Assembly: GCA_947311625.1 (NCBI GenBank)
Contig: CAMZKW010000005.1
Span: 1 to 43,843 of the forward strand
DNA: 43,843 nt
Direction: 5' to 3'
Origin: Candidatus Campbelliibacteriota bacterium
Lineage (GTDB): Bacteria; Patescibacteriota; Minisyncoccia; Phycocordibacterales; GCA-2747955
Part shown: in pieces, positions 10,156 through 24,296 of the stretch
Position numbering within the stretch: the first letter of the stretch is position 1
Layout of the letters: each line of letters begins with the position of its first letter
Program-made: the position numbers and the translations under genes
Notes under the pieces: generated by a model
Database searches by the model: none
Told to the model about the DNA's origin: nothing
What the model saw: the letters and a program-made list of their open reading frames with translations, nothing else

Positions 10156-11166
10156 ATGAAAAAAGATATATTAATTTTAGGGGCAGGAATTTTATTATTA
10201 GCAAATTCAACAATGGCTTTTGGAGGAGATGGCCAAGGAAGTGGTCATGGAAATGGGGGTGGTTGTCGTGGTGATGTTACTTGTATGCAAGAAAGACAAG
10301 ATCAAAATAAAAATAATAGAGAGTTTAAATCTCAAAGAGGTAATCATGAAATAAAAAACGGTTACGAAGAAGAGGAGGAGGGAGAAAGACATAGTTATAA
10401 AAAAGAAAATCAGTCAAATGATGTAGATGATGACCATGCAAAAAAAGAAGCTAAATGTATGCAAGAGATGGATGATATTAAAAATGGAGAAAAATATGGC
10501 TTAAGCAAAAATGAAAAAGAATATATTTCGTATATGAGAGAAGAGGAAAAAATTGCTCGTGATGTATATTTAACTTTATATAAAAAATGAGGTTTAAAAA
10601 CATTTAATAATATTGCTACAAAATCAGAGCAAAGACATATGGATATGGTAAAAGTATTAATTGATAAGTATGGACTAGAGGATTCAACGGTTGATAATAC
10701 AGTAGGAGTTTTTAAAACAAAAGAATTTCAAGATTTATATGATGATTTAGTAGTAAAAGGTTCAAAATCATTAGCGGACGCTATTAAAGTTGGTTTAACA
10801 ATCGAAGATTTAGATATTTATGATTTAGATAGATATTTATCAGAAACAAAAAATCCAGATGTTAAAAATATATTTCAAAAATTAAACAAAGGTTCTTTTA
10901 ATCACGCACAAGCTTTTAAGAGACAATTGGATAGAAATGGTGGAACTTATGAACCACAGTTTGTTTCAGTAGAAAGGTGAGAAGAAATTCTTAATATGCC
11001 AAAAGGTGATGATGGAAAACCTAGCCATGGAAAAGAGGTGGATCGTGAATATGAATCAGGTGATAATATGAAAGATGAGGGGCATGAAAGACAGGAAAGA
11101 AATAAAAGACAGGAAGGGAAAGGATTTTTTGAAAAAGTTTGAAATTTTCTTTTTGGATGAATATAA
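10156..11166 (+). CDS. Secreted DUF2202 (ferritin-like) protein
   Basis: 336 aa. A signal peptide (KKDILILGAGILLLANSTMAFG) is followed by a Gly/His-rich and then acidic linker with two CMQE motifs. The DUF2202 domain is at about residues 118-275: YMREEEKIARDVYLTLYKKWGL, SEQRHMDMVKVLIDKYGL, LYDDLVVKGSKSLADAIKVGLTIEDLDIYDL, FNHAQAFKRQLDRNGG. Its Glu and His pattern is that of a four-helix ferritin-like fold that may bind metal. TGA encodes the Trp of KKWG. The tail is charged and ends in a short aromatic helix (FFEKVWNFLFGWI). The ECF promoter upstream suggests stress control. Confidence 0.88.
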
Positions 11167-11370: not shown

Positions 11371-13536
11371 ATGAATAGAGAATATCCACTTAATAGAGTG
11401 AGAAATTTTGGTATTGTTGCTCACGTTGATGCAGGAAAAACTACCACAACGGAGAGAATTTTGTTTTACACAGGAGTTTCTCATAAAATTGGTGAGGTGC
11501 ATGATGGTGCAGCAACTATGGACTGAATGGAGCAAGAACAAGAAAGAGGGATTACAATTACCTCTGCTGCTACAACAGCTTTCTGAAATCCTTTATATGC
11601 AAAAGGTGATGCATCACAAAAAGTAAGATTTAATATTATTGATACACCGGGTCACGTTGATTTTACAGCTGAGGTGGAAAGATCATTGAAAGTTCTTGAT
11701 GGTGCTGTTGTTGTTTTTGATGGTAATGCAGGGGTTCAACCACAATCAGAGACAGTATGAAAACAAGCTAATAAATATGGAGTTCCAAGAATGTGTTTTA
11801 TCAATAAATTAGATAAAATTGGAGCTGATTTTGATTATGCTTTTTCTACAATTACAGCAAGACTTACAAAAAATGCTGTCATGGCTCAATTACCAATTGG
11901 AGTTGAAGGTGATTTTAACGGAGTTGTTGATTTACTAGAGAAAAAAGCTTACACTTTTGAAGGTGAAATGGGTATGGATGTTAAAGAGATTGAAATACCT
12001 GCTGAAATGGCCGATAGAGTTGAAGAAAAAAGACAAGAATTTATTGAAAAAATTGTTGAAAATAATGAAGAATTAATGGATAAAGTATTAGGTGGTGAAG
12101 AAGTTGCCGTTGAAGACTTGCATAAAGAATTAAGAAGAGCGGTTATTGCCAATGAAATTGTTCCAGTTTTTGCTGGTTCAGCATTTAAAAATGTTGGTGT
12201 TCAATTAATGCTGGATGCTGTGGTTAGATATTTACCATCTCCAATAGATATTCCTCCTGTAACTGGAAATACTCCAGATATGGATGATGAACTTATTAGA
12301 GAGGCTTCCGATGAAGCACCATTATCATCTCTTGTGTTTAAAATTGCAACTGACCCATTTGTTGGACAAATTGCTTATGTGAGAATTTATTCTGGAAAAT
12401 TAGAAGCAGGTTCTTATGTTCTTAATTCAACTACTGGTAAAAAAGAAAGAATTGGTAGGTTATTGAGAATGCACGCAAACGAAAGAGAAGAAATTACAGT
12501 TGGATATGCTGGAGAAATTGTTGCTGTAGTTGGATTGAAAGATTCAAAAACATCAGATACTCTTTGTGCTTTAGATGCTCCAATTGAATTACATAGAATC
12601 ATATTCCCAGAGCCAGTTATTTCATTAAAGATTGAACCAGAATCAAAAGCTGATCAGGAAAAAATGGGTATGGCTATTAAAAAATTAGCTGATGAAGATC
12701 CTACTTTTACAGTTAATACAGATGAGGAATCTGGAGAAACTATTATTTCAGGAATGGGTGAATTACACTTAGATATTCTTGTGGATAGAATGAAGAGAGA
12801 ATTTAATGTTAATGCTAAAGTTGGACAACCACAAGTTTCATATAGAGAAACTATTACTGGTGAAGCAGAAGGTGAAGAAAAATATGCTAAACAATCAGGT
12901 GGTAGAGGACAATACGGTCATGTTAAATTAAGAGTTAAACCATTTGAAAAAACAGAATCTGAAATGAAATCAGATGAAGAAGATGGTTTGGCGAAAAATG
13001 TTTATAGAGAAGAAGGTTTTGAATTTATAAATAATATTAAAGGGGGAGTTATTCCTCAAGAGTTTATTACACCTACAAGAAAAGGTATAAAAGAAGGGAT
13101 GGACAGGGGTATTCTCGCAGGATACCCATTGGTTAATGTTTCCGTTGATTTATACGATGGTTCTTACCATGATGTTGATTCATCTGAACTTTCATTCAAA
13201 ATTGCTGGTTCAAAAGCCCTTTCAGACGCTGCTAGAAAAGCAAATCCAAAGATTTTAGAACCTATTATGAAAGTTGAAGTTGTAACCCCCGAAGAATTCG
13301 TTGGAGATGTAACTGGAAATATTTCATCAAAGAGAGGAACTATTTTAGGAATTGATGAAAGAGATATGGATCAAGTTGTTAATGCTCTTGTGCCACTTTC
13401 AGAATTATTTGGTTATGTAACTACTGTTAGATCAATGACTCAAGGTAGAGCTACTCCAAATATGGAATTCCATTCATATGGAATTGTTCCACAAAATGTT
13501 GCCGATGAGATTATAAAGAAAAGAACAGGAAATTAA
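11371..13536 (+). CDS. fusA: Translation elongation factor G
   Basis: 721 aa GTPase that drives ribosomal translocation. G1 [10 protein letters not shown] (residues 17-26), G2 region [13 protein letters not shown]3 DTPGH (about 91-95), G4 NKLD (about 146). Domain IV has GQYGHVKL-type sequence and the end is [24 protein letters not shown]. Three TGA codons fall at Trp positions that are nearly invariant in [22 protein letters not shown] and ETV-W-KQANKYG. The gene has no TGG at all. This is the strongest single piece of evidence that UGA means Trp here. A terminator follows. Confidence 0.97.
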
Positions 13537-21533: not shown

Positions 21534-21562
21534 AAAATAAAGATTAAAAATCTTTATTTTTT
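21532..21562. terminator. Bidirectional terminator between DUF4145 gene and ruvA
   Basis: AAAAAATAAAGA/TCTTTATTTTTT (12 bp) with loop TTAAAAA, between convergent genes. Confidence 0.8.
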
Positions 21563-22125
21563 TACTTTCTCTGACCTAAAATTTTAAGAGCTTCTTTGAT
21601 TTTATCATCACCTTCAATATTTTCAACTTCCTTTAAAACCTCGCGAATATCGTGCCTAGCAAACCCAAGAGCCTCCAAAGTTTCATAAATTTCAATGTCA
21701 AAATTATTTTCTTCATTAATCAAATCAATTTTTTCAATTTTATTTTTTAATTCTAAAATAATTTTCTGAGCATTTTTCTTTCCAATTCCTGAAACCTTTG
21801 TAAGTTCATCGGTATTTTCTGATACAACGGCTCTCTTTAAAGATGCAGGTGTTGAAACATCCATAATTGAAAGAGCAACCTTTGGACCAATTCCAGAAAT
21901 TCCAATCAATAGTTCAAAAATTTCTAACTCTGTAAAAGATTTAAAACCAAAAAGCTCCAGAGCATTTTCTCTCACTACCTGATATGTTCAAATAAAAACA
22001 TCTTGATTTTCTTTTAATTCCAAAGTATAGGAACCAACAAAAATTTTATAGCCAACCCCATGGCTTTCCACCACAATAAAATTATTTTTTATTAAAATAA
22101 TTTTTCCACTAATTGAATTTATCAT
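21562..22125 (-). CDS. ruvA: Holliday junction DNA helicase subunit RuvA
   Basis: 187 aa, tetrameric junction-binding partner of RuvB. The N-terminal OB part reads MINSISGKIILIKNNFIVVESHGVGYKIFV, followed by VREN-ALELFGF. A helix-hairpin-helix pair follows: LLIGISGIGPKVALSIM and LTKVSGIGKKNAQKIILELK. The C-terminal domain ends EALKILGQRK. TGA inside VFIWTYQ is Trp. The start at 22125 is preceded on the minus strand by TAAAAT and 6 nt, the leaderless pattern. RuvB and RuvC are not in the window. Confidence 0.93.
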
Positions 22126-22266
22126 AATTTTATTTTAACATATTTAATAAATAGATTTCATTTTTATTTTTTGAAAAAAATAATTTCTTAATAATATATT
22201 ATTTTAAATTTTTCTTTTTTTATATTTTTTTTGCTATAATTAAAAACATATAAGCATATATATTTT

Positions 22267-22331
22267 ATGCACTCGGTCAGAATTAACCAAAGAGAGTCAA
22301 CCGAGTTTGTTTAATCATGACTCTCGTTTTT
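22267..22331 (+). promoter_or_regulatory. pheT leader with leader peptide and attenuator-like hairpins
   Basis: A 15-codon frame (22267-22314, MHSVRINQRESTEFV) ends ...Glu-Phe-Val-stop. ACTCGGT (22271-22277) can pair with ACCGAGT (22300-22306). GAGAGTCA (22292-22299) can pair with TGACTCTC (22318-22325), which is followed by GTTTTT, a terminator. The arms interleave, so the two stems compete or form a pseudoknot. A TATAAT lies upstream near 22235. This looks like transcription attenuation of a Phe-tRNA synthetase gene. Only one Phe codon is present, so ribosome-stall control is not proven. Confidence 0.55.
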
Positions 22332-22337
22332 AAAAAT

Positions 22338-24296
22338 ATGAAATTTAGTTATAATTGATTACAAAGTTTTTTTGATGAAAAACTACCAAGTCCTCAGGAA
22401 TTAGTTGATAAATTAGGAGTTCACTCTTTTGAATTGGAAGGAGTTGAAGAGGTTGAAGGAGATACTTTAATTGATTTGGATATTCTTCCAAATCGTTCTT
22501 CGGATTCTTATTCTTACCAAGGAATTGTTTGAGAAATTTCAGCGCTTTTTGCTTTGAAACCAAAAAATTTAATTCCAGAATTTAAAGGAAGTGATGAAGT
22601 AAAAACTTCTGATTTATTGACTTTGGAAGTTCAGACTGACAAGGTAAAAAGGGCTACAAAGAGAATTGCTCTTGATGTGGAAGTAAAAGAAAGTCCAGAA
22701 TGGTTAAAAAAACTTTTGGAAGCCATCGGTCAAAAGTCAATCAATAATGTGGTTGATATTACAAATTATGTAATGTGGGTAACCGGTCAGCCGGTTCACG
22801 CCTTTGACTATGACAAAATTGTGGGGGAGAGTCAAAAGAAAATTTTTATTCGTCAGGCAAAAAATGGTGAGAAAGTTGTTGATTTGAGCGGCGATGAGCA
22901 TGAGTTAGATGAAACAATGCTGGTTATTGCCGATGAGGAAAAGGCTTTAGATATTGCCGGTTTGAAGGGGGGAGAAATTTCCGGAATTGATGAAAACACA
23001 AAAAGAGTAGTTTTGTCTGCCGTAAATTTTGATTACCAAAATATTAGGAATACTTCAAAAAAATTAAAATTAAGAACCGATGCTTCAATGAGATATGAAA
23101 ATGAAGTCCCTCTTTGTCGTTTAGATGCGGCGGTTAATTTGTTTGCTGATTTGATGGTTAAGGAAGCCGGAGCAAAGGTTTCTGCTGATTTAATTGATAC
23201 CAACCATTTTGATTTTTCTCAAAAGAAGATTATTGAATTGGAGGCTCAAAAATTAAACTCTGTTTTAGGTTCTGAAATTGAGCCTCAGAGAGCAGTGGAA
23301 ATTTTGAATTCTCTAAATATTAAAACAGAATTTAATGGGGGGGAATTTATTTCAGAAATTCCTTGCGATAGGTTGGATTTGAATATTAGGGAAGATTTAA
23401 TTGAAGAGGTTGGAAGAATTATTGGCTACAATAATTTAGAGGCAAAAATGCCAGACGAGGCTTTTAATTTTTCAGAGCAAAATATTTTCAAAAAGAATTT
23501 TTACAAAACTCTTGATTTATTGGTTTCTCTTGGCTTTTACGAAGTTCAATCAAGGGCTTTGGCAGGAAAGGGGGTTGTTGAGTTAGCAAACCCTTACACT
23601 TCCGAATTAGGCTTTGTTAGAGATAATTTGTTGGACGGGTTGAGAAAAAAGGTTGAAAAGGAATTTGTGAATTTTGCCGAGCCAAAGCTTTTTGAAGTGG
23701 GAAAGGTTTTTACTGGCTACGAAACTGATGAAAAAGATAAGGTAGTGGCAGAGCATTGGTGCTTTGCTGGTATTATTGGAAAAAAGAAAATTAAGGAAAA
23801 ACAAAAGGAAGATTTCTTTTATAAAACAAAGGGGATTTTGGAAAAAGTTTTTGAAATTTTGTCCATTAAAAATATTGAATGAAGGGAAGGTCAGGGTGAA
23901 ATTTTAGCTGAGCTTTGAGTTGGTGATGAAAAAATTGGAGATGTGGGAGTAAATTTCTGAGAAATTAATTTTGAAAAATTAATTCAAAATATTGATGAGT
24001 CAGTTCATTACAAAAAGGTTTCAAAATTACCAAAAATGGAAAGAGATGTGGCTTTCTGAGTTCCAATGGACGAGCAGGTCAAAAGAGCCGAAGAATTTAT
24101 TTTATCAGTTTTGGGAGAGAATTTGAAAGAGGTTTCACTTTTTGATATTTACAAGGATGTTGAAAATAACCGAAAATCTTTTGCCTTTAAAATAATTTTC
24201 CAGTCAGACAAAGAAACACTTTCCGATGAATTTGCCAATGGAGAAATGGAAAAGGTTTATGGAATTTTGAAAGAAAATAATTTTGAAACAAGATAA
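22338..24296 (+). CDS. pheT: Phenylalanyl-tRNA synthetase beta subunit, short form
   Basis: 652 aa. MKFSYNWLQSFF (TGA at the conserved Trp) opens the B1 core. The B3/B4 editing domain shows INNVVDITNYVMWVTGQPVHAFDYDKI and LRTDASMRYENEVP. B5 and the catalytic-like core follow (IREDLIEEVGRIIGYNNLEAKMP). The C-terminal FDX-ACB anticodon-binding part has SKLPKMERDVAFWVP...LFDIYKD. The EMAP-type tRNA-binding domain usually inserted after about residue 40 is absent, making it about 150 residues shorter than standard PheT. PheS is not adjacent. The leader at 22267-22331 probably controls transcription. Confidence 0.94.

Follow-up and report, generated by a model that had tools for sequence, protein, structure and literature searches.

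Organization of the ruvA-pheT intergenic region

The window is a stretch of 43,843 nucleotides from a Candidatus Campbelliibacteriota bacterium (contig CAMZKW010000005.1), whose near relatives are Parcubacteria/Paceibacterota. It contains the divergent genes ruvA (21562-22125, minus strand) and pheT (22338-24296, plus strand), separated by an AT-rich gap. The pheT leader, of about 90 nt, includes an island with a GC content of approximately 0.4, versus 0.03 to 0.17 in the surrounding intergenic region. The features of this locus are as follows, G003 and G002 being two genomes of the same genus with homologous elements.

22232-22240, plus strand: extended -10 promoter element TGCTATAAT, identified in the sequence by consensus only, with a putative transcription start at about 22247
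22254-22270, plus strand: small 5-bp hairpin GCATA/TATGC in the minimum free energy (MFE) fold, abutting stem 1 and holding the leader ATG (22267-22269); not conserved in the homologues
22271-22277, plus strand: 5' strand of stem 1 (7 bp), ACTCGGT; double changes: two in G003, one in G002
22278-22291, plus strand: loop 1, CAGAATTAACCAAA; 11 of 14 bases identical in G003, similar in G002
22292-22299, plus strand: 5' strand of stem 2 (8 bp), GAGAGTCA; immediately followed by the 3' strand of stem 1 (loop 2 of 0 nt)
22300-22306, plus strand: 3' strand of stem 1, ACCGAGT, from the sequence and the homologue comparison
22307-22317, plus strand: loop 3, TTGTTTAATCA, read from the sequence; holds the leader stop codon TAA (22312-22314)
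22318-22325, plus strand: 3' strand of stem 2, TGACTCTC, from the sequence and the homologue comparison; overlaps an in-frame upstream ATG (22317-22319)
22326-22337, plus strand: AT-rich spacer of 12 nt, GTTTTTAAAAAT, from the knot to the ATG; 13 nt in G003 and 11 nt in G002
22338-24296, plus strand: pheT, beta subunit of Phe-tRNA synthetase, read with TGA as Trp; pheS is on another contig

The two interleaved stems and the T5 tract described in an earlier, sequence-only reading of this DNA are present, and both stems pair perfectly, with Watson-Crick pairs throughout. Their strands follow one another in the order a-b-a'-b', with loops of 14, 0, and 11 nt, and the direct contact between the 5' strand of stem 2 and the 3' strand of stem 1 favors coaxial stacking. 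As the stems have no base in common, no choice between them is forced, and the arrangement corresponds to an H-type pseudoknot, not to the competing folds of a switch. The sequence-only reading had allowed for both possibilities; of these, the pseudoknot is supported, as is a leader that is structured and promoter distal. Stem 2 is followed by a G, the T5 tract (22327-22331), and then the ATG of pheT at 22338, and the encoded N terminus, MKFSYNWL, is the conserved start of PheT, 12 nt past the knot.

The 15-codon leader frame noted earlier also exists, from the ATG at 22267 to the TAA at 22312-22314 (MHSVRINQRESTEFV, read from the sequence), and contains a single Phe codon. Its stop codon is located 2 nt ahead of the upstream in-frame ATG (TAATCATG), which would lengthen PheT by 7 residues.

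An H-type arrangement with perfect stems of 7 bp or more occurs once in the 43.8-kb window, in the pheT leader, and was absent from 20,000 local dinucleotide shuffles and from 60 dinucleotide shuffles of the whole window. Chance does not explain the interleaved stems. The fold of the leader was also better than that of 200 out of 200 shuffled sequences (z = -2.7). The helix energies, which were calculated from hand-entered Turner stacks and are approximate, favor the knot (-19 to -15 kcal/mol) over the nested MFE structure (-13 kcal/mol) for pheT; for the G003 and G002 elements the knot is roughly equal to the nested fold or better, depending on the penalty assumed.

Genomic context of the pheT leader

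The genome is mostly leaderless, in keeping with the sequence-only reading, and poor in Shine-Dalgarno (SD) sequences. In approximately 297 kb of it, -10 boxes ending 6 to 8 nt ahead of the ATG were found for 66 of 161 spacer-bearing genes, and SD-like sites for 15 of 249 genes, compared with 7 after shuffling. The pheT gene with its leader of about 90 nt is thus an exception. PheT and EF-G (11371-13536) both have in-frame TGA codons at conserved Trp positions, and the genome encodes a tRNA with anticodon TCA, labeled SeC by ARAGORN. TGA is read as Trp in this organism. The same reassignment is known for one family of Patescibacteriota, JAKLIH01 (PMC13092985).

In most near relatives pheT directly follows pheS, including G002 and G004, which belong to the genus of the window's genome. 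The pair is split in the window's genome (G000, contigs C5 and C9) and in G003 (contigs C27 and C37; loci L002, L100, L097, and L099), and neither gene was found in G001, a 93% complete genome of this genus. Four other loci in which pheT lies apart from pheS (L035, L041, L042, and L047) all have an upstream GGCCC...GGGTCC-like stem with the loop AAACTAACT and a T-rich tail.

Related elements precede other genes in sister species

A covariance model of the window's pheT leader without its start codon (R1) gave two weak matches in G003, one of which, with a rough E value of 0.19 per genome, is an element upstream of a type IV secretion system (T4SS) pilin gene (PF18895; L139/L142). Its stem 1 is GCTCGAT/ATCGAGC, its loop 1 CAAAATTAACCAGC, and its stem 2, GGGGGTG/TGCCCCC, abuts stem 1 directly and is separated from the pilin ATG by a 13-nt spacer. 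A second model (R2), built from the pheT and G003 elements and searched against 397 genomes of the order, yielded one further convincing element, directly upstream of rpsL in G002 (E value of 0.018, also weak and rough). There, stem 1 is GTTCGGT/GCCGAGC and stem 2 GAGAGACC/GGACTCTC, with one mismatch. The distances from the knot to the ATG are 12 nt for pheT, 13 nt for the pilin gene, and 11 nt for rpsL, although the last is partly built in, since R2 and a third model, R3, were trained with the ATG included.

As judged from the three homologues, both crossing helices are kept by compensatory changes. Compared with pheT, stem 1 shows two double changes in G003 and one in G002, and stem 2 shows three and one, respectively. 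Covariation of the stems was one of the checks proposed in the sequence-only reading, and its outcome did not refute them. The T tract after stem 2 is not kept: where pheT has T5, the G003 element reads CCCCC-AAATTTT and the G002 element CTCTC-ATTTA. The G003 element has no ATG ahead of stem 1, so that the 15-codon frame has no counterpart there. Thus, the knot and its distance to the ATG are common to the elements, whereas T tract, leader frame, downstream gene, and promoter distance are not, which points to translation initiation rather than attenuation.

The clear members are three only, one per species, each upstream of a different gene, in a genus of five genomes read in stretches (0.94 Mb, four genomes). 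With R2, the 397 genomes of the order gave no convincing member beyond the genus, and BLAST searches of the same genomes with the pheT leader gave four weak matches, as expected by chance. The element was absent from G003 pheT and from rpsL of the other readable genomes of the family, and no second copy was found in the window's own genome. The leader had no match in phages and plasmids, and of 12 matches to the core pattern of the element in viral contigs, none had a pseudoknot. Rfam scans of the window and the homologue loci identified nothing except tRNA.

Several candidates were set aside. A region upstream of the G003 rpsL promoter (L140/L178/L202) has the stem-1-like repeat only, without stem 2. 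A knot of 6 and 8 bp in the window's genome (L196) has no gene start downstream, and the remaining weak model matches showed no matching pseudoknot on inspection.

Shuffling of stem 2 and a scan blind to sequence similarity

With stem 1 held fixed, stems as good as the observed stem 2 arose in 106 (pilin), 69 (rpsL), and 2 (pheT) of 50,000 mononucleotide shuffles. With dinucleotide shuffles the counts were 1025, 29, and 0 of 20,000, respectively. The P value of approximately 0.05 for the G003 stem in the latter is due to its G and C runs, which survive such shuffling.

We also scanned 972 genes (0.94 Mb, four genomes) for pseudoknots ending 8 to 16 nt before a start codon, irrespective of sequence similarity. 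The three elements each ranked at the top of their own genome (scores of 38, 37, and 32), whereas approximately 0 to 0.7 shuffled genes per genome reached a score of 30. A weaker fourth candidate (score of 32, loop 2 of 0 nt) lies in the window's genome (L204, 1502-1566, contig C1), 13 nt ahead of rpsB-tsf, S2 being identified by Pfam. This knot resembles the others in shape though not in sequence. The G001 rpsB appears to be leaderless and has no such element; rpsB is thus only a possible member, and its knot may be an independent S2-type operator. Rfam gave no match at this locus. Another hit, in G003 (L261, approximately 10370-10452, contig C11; score of 33), is a strong inverted repeat before a REP-type-transposase-like gene (MSRKVIFENDKYYHIYNRG...) and represents a different thing.

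Possible functions of the leader

On balance, the pheT leader probably contains a cis-acting H-type pseudoknot of a small family that is restricted to one genus of Parcubacteria, precedes unrelated genes (pheT, a T4SS pilin gene, rpsL, and possibly rpsB), and would act on translation initiation. Other interpretations were weighed against this one. The sequence-only reading had proposed an attenuator with the second stem as a terminator, and control by Phe-tRNA supply. Stem 2 and T5 would then act as an intrinsic terminator under certain conditions only, and the antiterminator would be either stem 1 or a ribosome occupying the 15-codon frame. The 8-bp stem followed by G-T5 is suited to such a role, a ribosome at the end of the leader frame would cover stem 2, and stem 1, being transcribed earlier, could form before stem 2 is complete. 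However, terminator and antiterminator would not be mutually exclusive, as the stems do not overlap, and the homologues keep stem 2 and the 11- to 13-nt spacing to the ATG but not the T tract, nor does G003 have the leader ATG. Moreover, the loop of stem 2 is 18 nt long, unlike the GC-rich, tight-loop terminators of this genome (L100), and a consensus scan did not list it. We therefore consider attenuation rather improbable, and the proposed link with Phe-tRNA supply is not borne out, given that the homologues precede a pilin gene and rpsL and that G003 has no equivalent of the leader frame. Another form of autoregulation, in which stem 1 mimics the acceptor stem of tRNA-Phe (GCTCGGG/CCCGAGC) for recognition by PheRS, was suggested by the fact that, among 30 tRNA genes, that of tRNA-Phe resembles stem 1 most closely (5 of 7 positions in register, P of approximately 0.02; 5 consecutive positions, P of 0.004). 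This match was noticed post hoc, and the acceptor stem of tRNA-Phe is not known to be among its main identity elements. As the elements upstream of the pilin gene and rpsL have a comparable core (TCG, with CGAG in the 3' strand), chance is a simpler account, and we dropped mimicry as hardly credible.

The same pseudoknot might instead respond to one specific ligand, as a metabolite riboswitch or a ribosomal-protein operator. The similar loop 1, the compact fold close to the ATG, and the presence of the translation genes rpsL, rpsB, and pheT among the carriers are in keeping with this idea, yet the carriers have no common pathway, Rfam returned no match, and the element is confined to one genus among the 397 genomes of the order; this explanation also appears improbable to us. 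Finally, the stems are inverted repeats at the DNA level too, and the element is found at unrelated genes, as might be expected of a pair of overlapping dyads for protein binding or of what is left of a small mobile repeat. Against this, compensatory changes affect both arms, the gap between b and a' is zero or one nucleotide, and it is the distance to the ATG that is nearly fixed, not that to the promoter. With no further copy in its own genome and no phage or plasmid match, a DNA-level feature is very unlikely.

If the leader acts on translation initiation, the knot would sit at the 5' edge of the footprint of the initiating 30S subunit. It would most likely be a docking or gating element, which, when folded, would offer the AT-rich spacer and the ATG to the 30S subunit, with bS1 or another 30S protein as a possible mediator. 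A trans-acting factor locking or opening the knot would then set expression. A more far-reaching version, which we regard as unlikely, is that the 67-nt element (counted to the ATG) is a reusable module that unrelated genes of SD-poor, mostly leaderless Parcubacteria have acquired; it would take over the role of the SD sequence and dock the 30S subunit a set number of nucleotides ahead of the ATG. If real, the family would be a class of structured RNAs, namely coaxial pseudoknots 11 to 13 nt before the ATG of unrelated genes, and would bear on how translation starts in SD-less bacteria on mRNAs with a 5' untranslated region (UTR). Little work exists on leader RNAs from the Candidate Phyla Radiation; a full-text literature search combining that name with "pseudoknot" returned one paper, on the GTPase Era.

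Comparison with known leader RNAs

The pheST attenuator with its pheM leader peptide and the T-box are likewise leader RNAs upstream of Phe-tRNA synthetase genes. However, the pheT frame has one Phe codon in 15 and is unconserved, the related elements precede non-synthetase genes, and the G003 homologue has no ATG before stem 1, which argues against a pheM-type peptide. No T-box was listed by cmscan for positions 22130-22400 at E values up to 10. The statement in the sequence-only reading that the layout fits no T-box and no leader peptide with multiple Phe codons therefore stands.

A pseudoknot in the 5' UTR of Escherichia coli tisB is required for binding of the 30S subunit and S1 (PMC7708055). 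It is likewise of the H type and serves translation initiation, a role that in our case is proposed only. The tisB knot is near the 5' end of a toxin mRNA and far upstream of the ribosome binding site, whereas the pheT-type knots are 11 to 13 nt before the ATG, without an SD sequence.

Pseudoknots upstream of the initiation site of mycobacterial rpsO can serve as operators (PMC10931766). The rpsO (uS15) leaders of E. coli and mycobacteria resemble that of pheT in having a pseudoknot near the start codon, but they contain a U-G/C-G motif and regulate rpsO, which is not among the known carriers here. A uS15 operator was rejected, as this recognition motif does not occur in the all-Watson-Crick pheT stems. 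The uS2-responsive leader of gamma-proteobacteria is a structured 5' UTR before rpsB-tsf, where the window's genome also has a pseudoknot; the latter, however, has no Rfam match and is not conserved in G001. The rpsL leaders of G000, G002, and G003 (L185, L186, and L187) contain TTGTATC(AA)-like repeated boxes, possibly a separate ribosomal-protein leader.
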